The position numbers and the translations under genes are program-made. Positions 30,330 to 38,375 of a DNA stretch of 40,430 nt are shown piece by piece. The notes below the pieces were generated by a model, which did no database searches, was not told the DNA's origin, and saw only the letters and a list, made by a program, of their open reading frames with translations. The stretch is taken from positions 1 to 40,430 of the forward strand of contig NZ_CALMGQ010000167.1 of assembly GCF_937863595.1 (NCBI RefSeq), in the 5' to 3' direction. Position 1 is the stretch's first letter; each line of letters begins with the position of its first letter. The stretch is from an uncultured Cytophaga sp. GTDB taxonomy: Bacteria; Bacteroidota; Bacteroidia; Cytophagales; Cytophagaceae.

Positions 30330-31127
30330 TTATTTTTTAATATTCTGTATAAATTGATTGATATCATCCTCTAAATTAGAACTTGCTGAGAGCATTCGGA
30401 CAAAAGCCGAACCTATAATAGCCCCGTTAGCATATGCACACGCATCTGTAAAGGTTTTTTTATCCTTAATATTAAAACCAATCATACGTGGACTTTTCAA
30501 ACCAAAACTTTTAATTCGGTTGAAATAGGCTTCGTGGTTATCTTCTGTTTTCTTCGCATCATTACCTGTTGTGCTATTTGTAGATACCATATAGATAAAG
30601 CCTTGAGTAATATTATCGATTACATGAAGCCGTTCATCAGAAGTATTTGGTGTAATCAAGGATACGTTTGATATATTATTCGATTCACAAATCACTTGGT
30701 AATGTTCGATGTATTCGTCAAGTGGTAAATCTGGAATTATAACGCCATCAATACCAATTTCGCTTATTTCTTTCATAAACGTTTCAACACCATATTGCAT
30801 CACGGTATTGAAATATCCCATCAATAATATTGGGATGGTCACTTCTTTACGAACATCCTTTAATTGCTCTAACAATTTTTTAATTGTCATGCCAGCGTTA
30901 ATAGAGTCTAAGCTGCTTTGTTGAATGATCGGTCCATCGGCAACTGGGTCTGAATAGGGCATTCCAATTTCTACCATGTCTACACCAGCCTTTTCTAAGG
31001 CTTTAAGAACGGTTACTGTGTCTTCAATTTTTGGGTAACCAGCAGTAAAATATATATTTAAGATGTTGTTGCTTTTCTTTTGAAACAACTCTGTTATTCT
31101 ATTTTTAATTTTTGTAGTTGTTTCCAT
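30330..31127 (-). CDS. trpA: Tryptophan synthase alpha chain
   Basis: This subunit cleaves indole-3-glycerol phosphate to indole and glyceraldehyde 3-phosphate, passing indole to TrpB. The 265-aa TIM barrel keeps the catalytic pair Glu53 and Asp64 in EIGMPYSDPVADGP, with the same 11-residue spacing as the enteric enzyme. The phosphate-site sequences near the end (NIKDKKTF, GAIIGSAFV) are present. It is the last gene of the operon, one base after the trpB stop. Confidence 0.97.
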   Translation of the reverse strand: METTTKIKNRITELFQKKSNNILNIYFTAGYPKIEDTVTVLKALEKAGVDMVEIGMPYSDPVADGPIIQQSSLDSINAGMTIKKLLEQLKDVRKEVTIPILLMGYFNTVMQYGVETFMKEISEIGIDGVIIPDLPLDEYIEHYQVICESNNISNVSLITPNTSDERLHVIDNITQGFIYMVSTNSTTGNDAKKTEDNHEAYFNRIKSFGLKSPRMIGFNIKDKKTFTDACAYANGAIIGSAFVRMLSASSNLEDDINQFIQNIKK

Positions 31128-31128
31128 A

Positions 31129-32325
31129 TTATTTTGTACTTAAGTATTCTTCTTTTCTTGTTATGTACGTCATTAAATCTTTATCACCGCGACCAGATAA
31201 ATTCACTACAACAACATCTGATTTTTTAAATTTTCTATGTTCCAATACAGCTAGTGCATGGGCAGATTCTAATGCAGGAATGATCCCTTCTGTACGTGCT
31301 AACATAAATGCTGCCTCAAAGGCATCTTTATCTGTAATGCTCATGAAGGTTGCACGCCCTGTTTCAAATAAATTTGCATGCATGGGCCCAATGCCTGGAT
31401 AATCCAAACCTGCAGAAATGGAATGCGGTTCTACTACTTGGCCATCTTCTGTTTGCATCAATAAGGTTTTACTACCATGTAATACCCCTGGTTTTCCTAA
31501 AGCTGTAGTTGCTGCCGAATAACCAGAGTATACGCCTTCGCCAGCCGCTTCAGCAGCAATCAATTCAACATCTGGTTGATCTAAGAAATGATAGAATGCT
31601 CCTGCAGCATTGCTGCCTCCACCTACGCAAGCAATTACATGTGTAGGATTTGGGTTGCCTAATTTCTCGGTTAACTGATCTATAATTTCTTCGCTGATTA
31701 CTGCTTGCAAACGCGCAACCATATCTGGATAGGGATGTGGTCCAACTACAGAACCAATAATATAAAACGTATCCACAGGATTGTTAATCCAATCGCGCAA
31801 TGCTTCGTTGGTTGCATCTTTCAAGGTTTTACTACCTGTCATAGAAGGGATTACTTCGGCACCCAACATGCGCATGCGCTCCACGTTTGGTTTTTGTCTT
31901 TCCATATCTATTGCGCCCATGTGCACTACGCAAGGCATGCCCATAAGTGCACATGCTGTAGCAGTAGCAACACCGTGTTGACCTGCACCTGTTTCTGCAA
32001 TAATACGGGTTTTGCCCATACGCTTTGCAATCAATATCTGACCAATGGTATTGTTGATTTTATGTGCTCCGGTGTGACACAAATCTTCACGTTTTAAATA
32101 AACGTTTGTGTTGTATTTTTCAGACAAGCGTTTTGCGAAATACAAAGGGGTAGGGCGACCTACATAATTTTTAAGTAGATCTTTGTATTCTGCTTGAAAA
32201 GATTCATCGTAGATTATTTTTAAATAATTTTCACGAAGTTCTTCTACGTTTGGGTAAAGCATTTCAGGAATGAATGCACCTCCGTAATTTCCGTAGTATC
32301 CTTTTTTATCGACGTTGTAATTCAT
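31129..32325 (-). CDS. trpB: Tryptophan synthase beta chain
   Basis: This PLP enzyme condenses indole with serine to tryptophan. The 398-aa protein has the PLP lysine at 89 ([13 protein letters not shown]) and the phosphate loop [10 protein letters not shown], plus the catalytic Glu region [12 protein letters not shown]. This is the TrpB1 type, not the longer TrpB2. The gene follows the methyltransferase-like gene after a 149-nt gap that carries AT-rich sequence and short GCTTAA-type repeats but no gene. Confidence 0.98.
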
Positions 32326-32474: not shown

Positions 32475-33170
32475 TTATTTTTTAATTGAAAGAAATTGAT
32501 TTCCGTTCTTCTGAAATTCGTAATCCACTTCTTTAATTTCTACCGTATATATTTTGTTGAAGTGATCGATAATGGCATCTAATACTTCCGATTTCTCCGC
32601 ATTTAAATTTAACAGTGGAAATATTCGAACCTCATTGCAAAGACGCAACATTTCAGTAATCGATTGAATATGGAAATCTAAACCCAATTTAGAATAGAGT
32701 ATTAGAAAATGTGAACTCAATCCCAACTCAAAAGAATTGTCAGCATATTCAATAGGTATAGGCATTTCATGATATAAATATCTATTTTCAGCTTTTCCAG
32801 TATCAAAGTCTTTGATAAATTCTTGCATTGCTTTAATTCGAATACGCTCTAATTCATCTGGATTTTTAATTGTGTGCCAAATAAATTTTTCTGCATTCTG
32901 ACGCACCTGAGTCATTACTTCTTTGCGTGTTTCCTCAATCCGATGTTGAAGCTGTGCTTTCGAGAATCCATAAATGGGGTCTACAGATAATACTCGATTC
33001 CCATTTTGATGCATTTCGCTATTGAAACTTGCAGGACCGTCACCAATACTAAGAATATTTTTTTTAAGATCGTCTTCTGTTAACTGAAAGAATGCACAAT
33101 ATTCATTCAATGTCCTTCCCCAAGGCACAACGCTTTTTAATTCAAATGTAGATTTAAGAATGGTATCCAT
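32475..33170 (-). CDS. Methyltransferase-like protein embedded in the trp operon
   Basis: A 231-aa cytoplasmic protein with a class I SAM-dependent methyltransferase pattern: glycine-rich motif I ILSIGDGPASF at residues 39-49, then acidic Asp64 at the end of the next strand (VLSVDPIY). Later segments (FELGLSSHFLILYS, then EVRIFPLLNL and a final YEFQKNGNQFLSIKK) match a widespread family I recall as uncharacterised SAM-dependent methyltransferases. The substrate is unknown. Its start overlaps the trpF end by 17 nt, so it is translated with trpF and should share trp control. It is not a known step of the tryptophan pathway. Confidence 0.75.
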   Translation of the reverse strand: MDTILKSTFELKSVVPWGRTLNEYCAFFQLTEDDLKKNILSIGDGPASFNSEMHQNGNRVLSVDPIYGFSKAQLQHRIEETRKEVMTQVRQNAEKFIWHTIKNPDELERIRIKAMQEFIKDFDTGKAENRYLYHEMPIPIEYADNSFELGLSSHFLILYSKLGLDFHIQSITEMLRLCNEVRIFPLLNLNAEKSEVLDAIIDHFNKIYTVEIKEVDYEFQKNGNQFLSIKK

Positions 33171-33798
33171 GAGGAACTGTTGCTATTGCTTCTTTAAACT
33201 TTTTAATTCTATCTACATCCTTCAATCCTGGCTCCAATTCAAACCGACTGTTCACATCGAGTGCGTATATAGAAACAGTTTTCAAGTCATTAAGTTCAGT
33301 CAGAATAGATTCATCTACACCTCCACTTAAAAACAAGGGAATCTCATTATCGTATTCTTGTAGGATCTCCCAATTGAAACGCATCCCACTACCACCGTAC
33401 TCAGGAGTTTTTGTATCGAATAGAAAATAATCGGCTACTTTTTTATAGGGTTCTAAGATCGACCAATCCATTGTTTCCCCTACATGAAATACTTTGATAA
33501 CTTCTAATCCTGCATTTTTACAAGCCAAGCAAAATTCGGGTGTTTCATGTCCATGTAATTGAACGGCTTTAAATCCGTATGCAGCACAGATGCGCAATAC
33601 TTCTTCCAAGGATTCATTTACAAATACACCTGTTTTAAGTATAGAAGGAGATAGCGCTTTTACAAATTCTGGAGTAAGCGTTTCGCCACAATATCTTTTT
33701 GAAGGTTTGTAGAAAATAAAGCCCATATAATCTGGCAACAGTGCTGCCACTGCGCGTACATTATCTGGATACTTCATGCCACAAACTTTCAGTTTCAT
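33154..33798 (-). CDS. trpF: Phosphoribosylanthranilate isomerase
   Basis: TrpF converts N-(5-phosphoribosyl)anthranilate to CdRP, step three of the pathway. The 214-aa TIM barrel has the catalytic Cys6 in KVCGM, the motif AVQLHGHE, the phosphate motif LSGGV, and an Asp in ALDVNSRFE. It is separate from trpC rather than fused. Its 3' end overlaps the methyltransferase-like gene by 17 nt, while a 173-nt gap full of inverted repeats separates it from trpC. Confidence 0.95.
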   Translation of the reverse strand: MKLKVCGMKYPDNVRAVAALLPDYMGFIFYKPSKRYCGETLTPEFVKALSPSILKTGVFVNESLEEVLRICAAYGFKAVQLHGHETPEFCLACKNAGLEVIKVFHVGETMDWSILEPYKKVADYFLFDTKTPEYGGSGMRFNWEILQEYDNEIPLFLSGGVDESILTELNDLKTVSIYALDVNSRFELEPGLKDVDRIKKFKEAIATVPHGYHS

Positions 33799-33971: not shown

Positions 33972-34757
33972 TTACTTCGCTTCCGCCACTAATTTTTTTA
34001 AAGCCGCACCTGGGTCATTTGTTTTCATAAAGGATTCACCAATTAAGAAACCAGTATACCCATGCTTTCTTAATTCAACAATTGTTTTTGGGTCGTCAAT
34101 GCCACTTTCTGACACTTTAATATACCGATCGGGAATATGTTTTGCAACATCAATCGAAGTTTGTATGCTTACTTCAAAAGTTTTTAAGTTTCGGTTGTTT
34201 ACCCCTATAACATCAACCGTATCAATTAAATTTCCTTCTAATTCTTCGGCATTGTGCACCTCAAGTAACACTTCTAAATCTAGTTTGTGTGCATATTCCG
34301 ACAATTCTTTTATACGTTTCGGAGTCAAACACGCAGAAATTAATAAGATAACATCTGCTCCCATAGCACGCGCTTCTTCAATTTGGTATTCGTCTACCAT
34401 AAAGTCTTTGCGTAAAATCGGAATTTGAATCAAGGCACGTGCTTGCAATAAATCTTCCGTTGTTCCGCCAAAAAATTTGGTATCCGTCAAAACCGAACAT
34501 GCGCTAGCGCCTGCTGCTTGATATCCCGTTACAACTTGTTTCAAATCAACATTTGCGTTAATTACACCTTTAGAAGGAGATTGACGCTTATGTTCTGCAA
34601 TTACACCGCTTAAAGCAGGATTACTTAAATACTTTTTAAATGAAAGCGTTGGTCGAGTATATAATGGAGATGCACGAAGATCTTCAACCGAAACAGTTGC
34701 TTTTCGATCGGCAATTTCAATCCACTTATGTTCAATTATTTTATCGAGAATATTCAT
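33972..34757 (-). CDS. trpC: Indole-3-glycerol phosphate synthase
   Basis: TrpC closes the indole ring of CdRP, releasing carbon dioxide. The 261-aa TIM barrel has the family signature AEHKRQSPSKG at residues 54-64, containing the catalytic lysine, and the later motifs VLTDTKFFGG, RKDFMVDEYQ and GVNNRNLKTF, then KVSESGI. I place the start at the ATG at 34757; an in-frame TTG two codons upstream is less likely. A 146-nt gap separates it from trpD. Confidence 0.96.
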   Translation of the reverse strand: MNILDKIIEHKWIEIADRKATVSVEDLRASPLYTRPTLSFKKYLSNPALSGVIAEHKRQSPSKGVINANVDLKQVVTGYQAAGASACSVLTDTKFFGGTTEDLLQARALIQIPILRKDFMVDEYQIEEARAMGADVILLISACLTPKRIKELSEYAHKLDLEVLLEVHNAEELEGNLIDTVDVIGVNNRNLKTFEVSIQTSIDVAKHIPDRYIKVSESGIDDPKTIVELRKHGYTGFLIGESFMKTNDPGAALKKLVAEAK

Positions 34758-34807
34758 GTTCAATTTTATTAATCAATGAATCAAGTGCTTTTCTAAACAA
34801 CTGAAAA

Positions 34808-34903: not shown

Positions 34904-35890
34904 TTACTTAACAACTTTTTTAAAACAGTCGTATGCCTTGCCGCTTTCTAAGGATTCACGAGCTGTAGCAATGGCATCTAATAAAGAAATATCTGGTTTT
35001 GCTAACGCAATTGCCACACCTGCATTTGCCAACACAACTTCTTTTTGAGCGCGCGTGCCTTTATTTTCCAAAACTTCGATGAAAATTTTGGCAGCGTCTT
35101 CTACTGTTTTACCACCAGATAACTCTTCTGCTTTCCATATATTCAAACCCATATCATCTGGTTGAATAACTCGATCCATGTGATTGGATATTATTTTTAC
35201 GCCACCTGTTAACGATATTTCATCGTATCCATCAAGTGCATGTATGATTGTAAACTTGCTATGTAAACTTTGATGAATGTAACCATACAAACGGGCCAAA
35301 TCTAAATTGAACGTGCCGAGCATATGATAGGTTGGCATGGCTGGGTTTACAAGCGGTCCAAGCATGTTGTAAATGGTACGTATTCCTATTTCTTTACGAA
35401 CAGGCGCAACATTTTTCAACGCAGGGTGAAACAGTGGTGCGTGTAACATACAGAAGTTTGTTTCTTCTATTTGTTTGCGTAACGCCCCTTTGTCATTGGT
35501 AAATGTATATCCCAAATATTCAACGACATTGGAAGAACCACAACTGGATGAAACAGCATAATTACCATGCTTGGCAACTTTGATACCCGCACCCGCTACT
35601 ACAAAACACGATAAGGTGGAAATATTGAACGTATCTTTTCCATCGCCACCGGTTCCAACAATATCTATAGGGTTGTATTCCGATAAATTCGCATCCAAAC
35701 ACATATCCAATAATGCTTCTCTAAATCCTTGAAGTTCAGCAACGGTGATACTGCGCATCATATATACAGAAATGAATACTGCAACTTGAGCTGGGTTGAT
35801 GGTCCCGTTTCCGATTGCCAACATTGCATTTTTAGCCTCGTCTTTTGTTAAACGATAATGACTGGTAAGCTTCTGTAATAATTCTTTCAT
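34904..35890 (-). CDS. trpD: Anthranilate phosphoribosyltransferase
   Basis: TrpD joins anthranilate with PRPP. The 328-aa protein has the PRPP-binding loop GTGGDG at residues 79-84 within DIVGTGGDGKDTFNIST, and KHGN at 107-110 followed by SSSCGSSNVVEYLG. RKEIGIRTIYNMLGPLVNPA is also present. I take the ATG at 35890 (MKELLQKL) as the start, since the upstream frame begins only with TTG. It is not fused to trpG. The 267-nt gap to trpG holds repeat copy B. Confidence 0.96.
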   Translation of the reverse strand: MKELLQKLTSHYRLTKDEAKNAMLAIGNGTINPAQVAVFISVYMMRSITVAELQGFREALLDMCLDANLSEYNPIDIVGTGGDGKDTFNISTLSCFVVAGAGIKVAKHGNYAVSSSCGSSNVVEYLGYTFTNDKGALRKQIEETNFCMLHAPLFHPALKNVAPVRKEIGIRTIYNMLGPLVNPAMPTYHMLGTFNLDLARLYGYIHQSLHSKFTIIHALDGYDEISLTGGVKIISNHMDRVIQPDDMGLNIWKAEELSGGKTVEDAAKIFIEVLENKGTRAQKEVVLANAGVAIALAKPDISLLDAIATARESLESGKAYDCFKKVVK

Positions 35891-35933
35891 AAAATATATC
35901 AATCAAATTGATCTTGTATGTACTCTGTTCATT

Positions 35934-36157: not shown

Positions 36158-36751
36158 TTATTTGGAATTTGTCCCCTTGGACTCGAGCCAGTTCTGCATC
36201 ATTTTTTCTCCAAATTCTGTTAAGATAGATTCTGGGTGAAACTGAACACCTACGATGTCCAATGTTTTATGTCTCAATGCCATAATTTGTCCTTGTTCAT
36301 CTACAGCAGTTACCAGTAAACTTTCAGGGAAATTTTTCTGATCCACAACCCAAGAATGATATCTACCTGTTGTTATTTCATCGGGTATGCCTTCAAATAG
36401 AATACCTTTATCCAAGATTTTTGTTTTTGTTGCTACGCCGTGGTACACTTTCTCAAGATTTGTTAGCGTGCCGCCAAAAGATTCGCCAATGGCTTGCAAT
36501 CCTAAGCATACACCAAAAATACTTTTCTTGCCCGCAAATGTTTTTATAACATTTAATAAGATACCTGCTTCGGAAGGAATACCCGGTCCTGGAGATAATA
36601 GTATTTTATCAAAACGTTCTATTTCTTTAAGGGTAATTTTATCGTTGCGATGTACTTCCACATTTTTATAACCTAATGCTTTAATTATATGCACTAAATT
36701 ATACGTGAAGGAATCGTAATTATCTAAAACCAATATGGATATATCTTTCAT
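36158..36751 (-). CDS. trpG: Anthranilate synthase glutaminase component
   Basis: TrpG releases ammonia from glutamine for anthranilate synthase. The 197-aa class I amidotransferase has the triad Cys82 (GVCLGLQAIGE), His172 and Glu174 (QFHPESIL), and the oxyanion motif LSPGPGIPSEAG. It starts 16 nt after the trpE stop, consistent with co-translation of the two subunits. The same type may also serve folate synthesis (PabA), but its operon position favours TrpG. Confidence 0.96.
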   Translation of the reverse strand: MKDISILVLDNYDSFTYNLVHIIKALGYKNVEVHRNDKITLKEIERFDKILLSPGPGIPSEAGILLNVIKTFAGKKSIFGVCLGLQAIGESFGGTLTNLEKVYHGVATKTKILDKGILFEGIPDEITTGRYHSWVVDQKNFPESLLVTAVDEQGQIMALRHKTLDIVGVQFHPESILTEFGEKMMQNWLESKGTNSK

Positions 36752-36767: not shown

Positions 36768-38183
36768 TTAAATTTCTTCTGCCATTTGAATGGCTTTTTT
36801 AAGTGCGGCTAATTTATTGTTTACTTCTTCCAACTCGCTATTGATGTCAGATAAATCAACAACACCTGCACCTGCTTGATAGAATAAAATATTGTCTTTA
36901 CTCATAATGGTTCGAATCATGATAGCATGATTGAATTCTCCGTTAAAACCAATGAAGCCAATTGCACCCCCATAATACCCACGATTGCCGTGTTCGTTGC
37001 GGTCAATGATTTGCATTGCATTGTGCTTCGGTGCTCCAGACAATGTACCTGCAGGGAATGTATCACCGACAATGTTCATAAAGGCATCTTTATTATCCAT
37101 TTTGCCCGTTACTTTGGAAACCAAATGGATAACGTGTGAATAGTATTGAACTTCTTTTAATGTTTCTACTTGTACATCGTGGCAATGGCGACTTAAATCA
37201 TTACGAGCCAAATCAACCAACATAATGTGTTCTGAATTTTCTTTTGGATCATTCAATAACTGCATGGCTAAGTCGTAATCTTTTACATCATCGCCTGTTC
37301 TGCGAAATGTTCCTGCAATTGGATAAATTGTTGCTTTATCGTCTTTTACAACAATTTGCGCTTCAGGCGAAGATCCGAACAAACGGAAACTGCCGTAATC
37401 AAAATAAAATAAATACGGAGATGGATTTATAGAACGTAAACTTCTATACACGTTAAAATCATCACCTATATATTGTCTGGAGAATCTTCTGGATAGTACA
37501 ATTTGAAAAACATCTCCACGTCTGCAATGTTCTTTCCCTTTTTGCAGAACTTTTAAAAATTCTTCATCTGTAAAATTAGACTCTTCGCGATCTGCTAATC
37601 TAAATTCATACGAAGCAAAATTGCGACTATTTAAATACGCTTCAATTTGAGCAATGGAGCTGCCATCTGTATATTCCGTTCCTTCAGGATAGTTTTCAAT
37701 AATGGTTAATTCATTATTAAAGTGATTAAAAACAAGGATGAAGCGGTAAATGTGATATTGTAAATCTGGAATTTTTCGATATTCTGTTTCGAACGTTTTA
37801 ATTTTAATATCTTCAAAATAGCGTACTGCATCGTAAGAAGTATATCCAAAAATTCCACTACTAGTAAAGGGGAACTTCTTATCATCAACCTTAAAGCGTT
37901 TAACAAATTTGGTTATTTGCTCGGCAACATTTACTTCTTCAATATCTGTATCCTTAGTTGTGCCGTCTGGATAGTATTCAGAAAAATAGCCTTTATCAAT
38001 TTTAATTCCGGCGATTGGATTGCAACAGATATAGGAATAGATATCTTGATTGCCATGATAATCCGAACTTTCAAGTAACATGGTCTGCGGAAACTTATCG
38101 CGAAGTTTCAGGTACATACTTACAGGTGTAGTGGTATCGGCAAGTATTTTTTTATAAGTAAGCTTTAATGTATAAGTTTTCAT
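36768..38183 (-). CDS. trpE: Anthranilate synthase component I
   Basis: TrpE makes anthranilate from chorismate and is the committed step. I start it at the ATG at 38183 (MKTYTLKLTYKK), giving 471 aa. The longer frame from a GTG at 38270 would translate the attenuator hairpin and is rejected. The Trp feedback element LLESS is at residues 36-40, and the C-terminal chorismate-binding domain has FLKVLQKGKEHCRRGDVFQIVLSRR-type sequence (shown in part), SPSPYLFY-like NPSPYLFYF, GSSPEAQ, PIAGTFRRT and GAPKHNAMQIID. It heads the trp operon behind the leader-peptide attenuator, so it should be controlled by attenuation and by feedback. Confidence 0.96.
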   Translation of the reverse strand: MKTYTLKLTYKKILADTTTPVSMYLKLRDKFPQTMLLESSDYHGNQDIYSYICCNPIAGIKIDKGYFSEYYPDGTTKDTDIEEVNVAEQITKFVKRFKVDDKKFPFTSSGIFGYTSYDAVRYFEDIKIKTFETEYRKIPDLQYHIYRFILVFNHFNNELTIIENYPEGTEYTDGSSIAQIEAYLNSRNFASYEFRLADREESNFTDEEFLKVLQKGKEHCRRGDVFQIVLSRRFSRQYIGDDFNVYRSLRSINPSPYLFYFDYGSFRLFGSSPEAQIVVKDDKATIYPIAGTFRRTGDDVKDYDLAMQLLNDPKENSEHIMLVDLARNDLSRHCHDVQVETLKEVQYYSHVIHLVSKVTGKMDNKDAFMNIVGDTFPAGTLSGAPKHNAMQIIDRNEHGNRGYYGGAIGFIGFNGEFNHAIMIRTIMSKDNILFYQAGAGVVDLSDINSELEEVNNKLAALKKAIQMAEEI

Positions 38184-38211: not shown

Positions 38212-38247
38212 AAAAAGAGGCTTGCCGTGAACAGCAAGCCTCTTTTT
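38212..38247 (-). terminator. trp attenuator terminator hairpin
   Basis: On the minus strand, AGAGGCTTGC at 38243-38234 pairs perfectly with GCAAGCCTCT at 38225-38216, extended by four A-T pairs, around the 8-nt loop TGTTCACG. The 3' side reads TCTTTTTCTTTT, a U-rich tail. It lies 45 nt after the leader peptide stop and 28 nt before the trpE ATG. Its loop plus two stem bases can pair instead with an upstream leader segment (38275-38285), forming an antiterminator. Confidence 0.9.
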
Positions 38248-38291
38248 TGATATATTTTCAAACAGGACACAGCAGCATGTTCACGAACCGA

Positions 38292-38339
38292 TTAGTTCAC
38301 GCACCACCACCATTGTTTTGTTCCTGTCATTGTCTTCAT
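38292..38339 (-). CDS. trpL: trp operon leader peptide TrpL with three consecutive Trp codons
   Basis: The minus strand has ATG at 38339 and 15 codons, MKTMTGTKQWWWCVN, ending in TAA. Codons 10-12 (38304-38312) are TGG TGG TGG. A peptide of this size with three tandem Trp codons just before a terminator hairpin and trpE is the hallmark of ribosome-mediated attenuation. When charged tRNA-Trp is scarce, the ribosome stalls on these codons, leaving downstream RNA free to form the antiterminator. No Shine-Dalgarno site is present, and the promoter -7 box ends 5 nt before the ATG, so the mRNA is probably leaderless or nearly so. A second ATG at codon 4 is a possible alternative start. Confidence 0.9.
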   Translation of the reverse strand: MKTMTGTKQWWWCVN

Positions 38340-38344
38340 GGTTA

Positions 38345-38375
38345 CAAAGATATGGGGGAATTTTCAATTTCCAAA
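38345..38375 (-). promoter_or_regulatory. Consensus promoter of the trp operon
   Basis: The minus strand reads TTTG (38375-38372), exactly 19 nt, then TATCTTTG (38352-38345). Both boxes match the Bacteroidota primary sigma consensus TTTG/TAnnTTTG at the usual spacing. The -7 box ends 5 nt before the leader peptide ATG, placing the transcription start at or very near that codon. Confidence 0.85.

Follow-up and report, generated by a model that had tools for sequence, protein, structure and literature searches.

A probable ribosome-mediated attenuator of the trp operon in an uncultured Cytophaga, a member of the Bacteroid-trp RNA family

The trp leader of E. coli encodes a short peptide with tandem Trp codons (two, as compared with three at the locus described here), follows a logic of competing 1:2, 2:3, and 3:4 pairings, and ends in a terminator before trpE. 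The same layout is found in the uncultured Cytophaga sp. considered here, but within a genome lacking TrpR, under a Bacteroidota promoter, with a predicted 5′ UTR of almost no length, and with an antiterminator apparently aimed mostly at the loop and apex of the terminator. A second described system, trpL of S. meliloti, shares with our locus trp attenuation without transcriptional repression, as well as a leaderless transcript starting at the ATG (in our case a prediction only); it differs in belonging to another phylum and in having trans roles of its own, in which both the trpL sRNA and the peptide act (PMC7298713). Nearer to hand are the leaders of Flavobacterium psychrophilum, from the same phylum but a different class of Bacteroidota. 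The parts of the literature that treat them recognize the trp element as Bacteroid-trp (PMC9723704, PMC6414381) and report strong clues, taken from transcriptome maps, for leader-peptide attenuation upstream of Flavobacterium amino-acid operons (PMC9723704); antiterminator co-evolution does not feature in those parts of either paper. The Bacteroid-trp family itself was described in 2010 by Weinberg and colleagues (PMC2864571), and a later paper draws the comparison with the trp leader of E. coli (PMC6414381).

A covariance-model scan places our element squarely in that family. Rfam RF01692 (Bacteroid-trp) matches positions 38233–38359 on the minus strand at 67.3 bits, against a gathering score of 49 bits, with the model aligned over its complete length (positions 1–131). 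This is the sole gathering-level Rfam match in the 40,430-nt window (that is, the whole stretch of DNA analysed) and the sole RF01692 match in the genome, and it lies upstream of trp biosynthesis genes as family membership demands, with trpE starting at 38183. Element and family have in common their place before the trp genes, the tandem Trp codons, the 1:2 hairpin, and the start of the terminator. The initial annotation had left it undecided whether such an element was on record for this lineage; it had in fact already been described for Bacteroidetes as RF01692, and because the family was catalogued in 2010, we regard the element as mostly ordinary and not new. It is nonetheless real and functional-looking, and was correctly interpreted from the outset: sequence comparison and modelling together make it very probable that it attenuates transcription of the trp operon by way of a translating ribosome and belongs to Bacteroid-trp, with every classical part present and conserved. 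The RF01692 model, by contrast, stops inside the 5′ arm of the terminator and contains no antiterminator pairing. Two features described below go beyond it: an antiterminator that, judging from sequence, seizes mainly the terminator loop and top, and a promoter so near the leader ATG that a leaderless mRNA is predicted to result.

All elements of the attenuator lie on the minus strand. The promoter that had been claimed is present and is of the Bacteroidota type, for which the published consensus is TTTG/TAnnTTTG (PMC7366714 and the relevant part of PMC9723704): a −33 box TTTG at 38372–38375 stands 19 nt ahead of the −7 box TATCTTTG (TAnnTTTG) at 38345–38352. Scanning this strand for sigma-70-type promoters yielded nothing, which fits a Bacteroidota host. 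Since the −7 box spans positions −12 to −5 in Flavobacterium (PMC9723704), the predicted start falls near 38340, leaving a 5′ UTR of about 1 nt. The −7 box recurs among related loci: an exact TAnnTTTG lies within the 60 nt preceding the leader in 52 of 146 entries (drawn from overlapping sets, some of them duplicated) versus 13 in the adjoining 60 nt further upstream, and its distances to the start codon cluster at 4–10 and 15–21 nt. Leaderless mRNAs amount to 5.5% in F. psychrophilum in the portion of PMC9723704 that reports them, and 5′ UTRs below 10 nt to about 3.7% in B. thetaiotaomicron. A leaderless trp leader would thus be unusual, but not new, given the known start-at-ATG trp leader of S. 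meliloti.

The leader peptide ORF (MKTMTGTKQWWWCVN-stop) runs from ATG to TAA over 15 codons at 38292–38339, and carries three consecutive Trp codons, TGG TGG TGG, at 38304–38312, exactly as first read; these are the putative regulatory codons. Segment 1, its partner, segment 2, and the terminator apex were likewise reproduced at exactly the positions originally assigned to them. The core of the 1:2 (pause or protector) hairpin pairs segment 1, CGTGAAC (38301–38295), with GTTCGTG (38288–38282), as had been proposed, but by the Rfam model and by folding the hairpin is predicted to be longer than those 7 bp, extending over 38261–38328 and taking the Trp codons into its lower stem. Segment 2, CGTGAACATGC (38275–38285), is the 5′ strand of the putative antiterminator, and segment 3, GCTGTTCACG (38226–38235), comprising the terminator loop and apex, is its 3′ strand; both assignments come from folding and from the swap test presented below, and the resulting 2:3 pairing comprises 10 bp and a single bulged base. 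The hairpin with a U-rich tail noted ahead of trpE is an intrinsic terminator (3:4; 38212–38247) called by a terminator search and by folding, with 16 pairs when the A-U base is counted, the loop TTCA, and a U-rich tract that continues to about 38205. For the 137-nt leader, folding predicts the 1:2 hairpin together with the terminator, with a z score of −4.4 and 0 of 200 dinucleotide shuffles equally stable. The pair formed by segment 2 and the apex was sought elsewhere in the genome, and no second copy was found outside this locus; a similar leader sought on plasmids was not found either.

In the mechanism that we infer, RNA polymerase would start about one base ahead of the leader ATG. At low levels of charged tRNA-Trp, a ribosome would stall at the three Trp codons, preventing the 1:2 hairpin; segment 2 (CGTGAACA.GC) could then pair with the nascent terminator loop and apex (GC.TGTTCACG), and this 2:3 pairing would delay formation of the terminator until polymerase is beyond the U tract, so that the trp genes are transcribed. 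With ample Trp, translation would proceed to the UAA just ahead of segment 2, where the ribosome would mask that segment or, alternatively, 1:2 would re-form after ribosome release; in either case, 3:4 would form and transcription would end ahead of trpE. Folding with the ribosome placed at different positions shows the corresponding switch in silico. With the ribosome at W10, W11, or W12, the lowest-energy fold is 2:3 as long as the transcript ends no further along than 38218; if the ribosome stands at the stop codon instead, or is left out, the change to 3:4 comes at 38222–38220. About a dozen nucleotides are covered by RNA polymerase, so an RNA ending at 38218 approximates what lies outside an enzyme standing on the U tract. 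In these calculations, the fully transcribed terminator outdoes the antiterminator in thermodynamic stability, and antitermination must therefore be kinetic, as is likewise the attenuation switch of the E. coli trp operon.

A terminator accompanied by an alternative fold would equally fit a leader whose sensor is not the ribosome but a T-box recognizing tRNA, a protein of the TRAP type, or an RNA that binds Trp, in which case the ORF would be incidental. The evidence makes such a sensor highly improbable. Bacteroid-trp is the only Rfam match in the window, and a T-box covariance model gave no match in these 40 kb; TrpR (PF01371) and TRAP (mtrB, PF02081) gave no match in the 99.9% complete genome, in searches whose controls were positive (the B. 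subtilis genome yields the PF02081 match for TRAP); and the Trp codons are kept across highly diverged leaders. Control by a T-box, by TRAP, or by TrpR was accordingly rejected. Given a genome with neither TrpR nor TRAP, ribosome-mediated attenuation may be the main control of trp expression.

The antiterminator was evaluated by a swap test, in which leaders are exchanged between terminators in an alignment-free manner over identity-filtered loci. Across 68 loci less than 75% alike, each leader paired with its own terminator at a mean of −15.0 kcal/mol, versus −10.8 kcal/mol for swapped partners (z −12.7; considering the apex only, z −13.5). The signal persists among 32 more dissimilar loci (z −9.9) and among 12 very dissimilar ones (z −5.3 and, apex only, −4.6), and at none of these three levels did any of 20,000 permutations pair as well. 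At most loci, the terminator loop and apex have a pairing partner in a segment located at the stop codon of the leader or shortly past it, and frequently a further short helix involves the 5′ arm of the terminator. The letters involved change from clade to clade: GTGAACA/TGTTCAC in Cytophaga relatives, GGGATGA/TCATCCC in Spirosoma relatives, and TTGCGAC/GTCGCA in Solitalea. The median start of the antiterminator 5′ strand lies 8 nt upstream of the end of the leader stop codon, a position at which a terminating ribosome would mask it; in the window, the strand starts a few nt past the stop. In Fulvivirga lutimaris and a Marivirga sp. (L088 and L074), two complete attenuators with WW leaders stand in series upstream of trpE, each of which has its own terminator and matching antiterminator; in both loci, a terminator pairs more strongly with the leader it belongs to than with its neighbour's.

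These results bear on the alternative that a Trp-rich short ORF merely precedes an ordinary terminator, with no working antiterminator, so that the peptide is made and read-through is constitutive. Some loci do show weak 2:3 pairing, notably the Pedobacter-type group with WxW leaders, where there is little antiterminator signal. Yet the co-evolution of leader and apex, which 0 of 20,000 permutations could equal, and the fidelity of the tandem attenuators to their own partners render that alternative very unlikely, and support an antiterminator as attenuation requires. The mutually exclusive 2:3 and 3:4 pairings of the initial annotation are thus backed by folding, the swap test, and the tandem loci, all of it sequence and folding evidence. 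The covariation check that it suggested came out strongly by the swap test and with a modest excess when pairs were counted by column in an unfitted MAFFT alignment (67% paired versus 62% in row-shuffled alignments, maximum 65%), the latter being weak because leaders vary in length. In one genus of the order (loci L153, L154, L157, L158, L161, and L169), the leader peptide is long (...WWWHYIKDIGDKS..), and its coding sequence GCGATAAGTC is similar to the 3′ arm of the terminator; the antiterminator strand may accordingly sit inside the ORF there.

To assess conservation, trpE upstream regions were gathered at the level of the family and of the whole order, as well as from named genomes; named and unnamed sets overlap, and counts over mixed sets are therefore not independent. 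The order-level count covers 110 genomes with a readable trpE upstream region, one locus per genome. A short ORF with WW or WxW is present in 87 of these and is followed by a strong terminator in 81, whereas Rfam's own model, under stricter filters, detects RF01692 in only 7 of 148 order genomes. Leader plus terminator appeared in 0 of 500 dinucleotide shuffles versus 81 of 100 real trpE upstream regions. Relatives retaining the hairpin without the Trp codons had been named as the observation that would tell against attenuation; that case did not overturn the reading, both parts being kept together in 81 of the 110 loci. Species of Cytophaga are the closest relatives, and the loci with 95%-identical TrpE include that of C. 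aurantiaca. The recognized leader-terminator arrangement was not found in 29 of the 110 relatives, so the attenuator is not universal. Eight leader-negative loci have a strong hairpin near trpE, four with a short ORF containing a single Trp codon and four without such an ORF. The former type is seen at L041, L060, L141, and L152, where a terminator near trpE follows a short ORF holding one Trp codon only, and these are possibly degenerate or single-codon attenuators. At L054, L056, L145, and L167, from one genus of a neighbouring family, trpE has no recognized Trp leader or terminator.

Within the leaders, Trp is by far the residue of choice: 60 of 110 loci contain a WWW run, and the runners-up, V and L, reach 7 each. 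Outside the Trp run, the peptide sequence is highly variable, which argues against a further role for the peptide itself. Attenuation could be real and yet be supplemented by trans action of the terminated leader RNA or peptide, like that of rnTrpL/peTrpL in S. meliloti, whose trpL the predicted leaderless leader mRNA resembles (PMC7298713); in view of the variability of the peptide, we consider such an addition improbable, and retain attenuation in cis as the preferred reading.

Downstream, on the same strand, the gene order is trpE (36768–38183), trpG (36158–36751), trpD (34904–35902), trpC (33972–34763), trpF (33154–33798), an embedded gene of unknown family (32475–33170, overlapping trpF by 17 nt), trpB (31129–32325), and trpA (30330–31127), with Pfam matches for all of the trp genes. 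The leader transcript may extend over all eight of these genes; gaps of 255 nt between trpG and trpD and of 149 nt ahead of trpB could hold internal promoters. The embedded gene gave no Pfam, NCBIfam, or PADLOC match at an E value of 0.001, and its structure model is of low confidence (pLDDT 53); a GDGPASF motif suggests a possible methyltransferase-like fold. Within the genus, one genome (G003) has the gene at a matching distance from trpE, another (G015) has it on a different contig from trpE, and it was not detected in C. aurantiaca (G002).

What our analysis adds to the described family is evidence for antiterminator co-evolution, an order-wide distribution missed by the Rfam model, and a predicted leaderless leader. 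We put forward only tentatively, as possible and not as the favoured view, the broader proposal that the Cytophagales-type Bacteroidota trp attenuator constitutes a distinct and largely unrecognized architecture, with a leaderless leader mRNA, ribosome loading as the 5′ end emerges, an antiterminator that targets the terminator loop and apex and not most of the 5′ arm, and occasional duplication in series. The current Rfam model misses most instances, which an antiterminator-aware model would find; if transcription starts at the ATG as predicted, these tractable bacteria offer a setting in which to test how ribosomes load on leaderless attenuators. Classical ribosome-mediated attenuation appears to be the common form of trp control across a Bacteroidota order whose bacteria hardly use Shine-Dalgarno sequences, here in a genome without TrpR.
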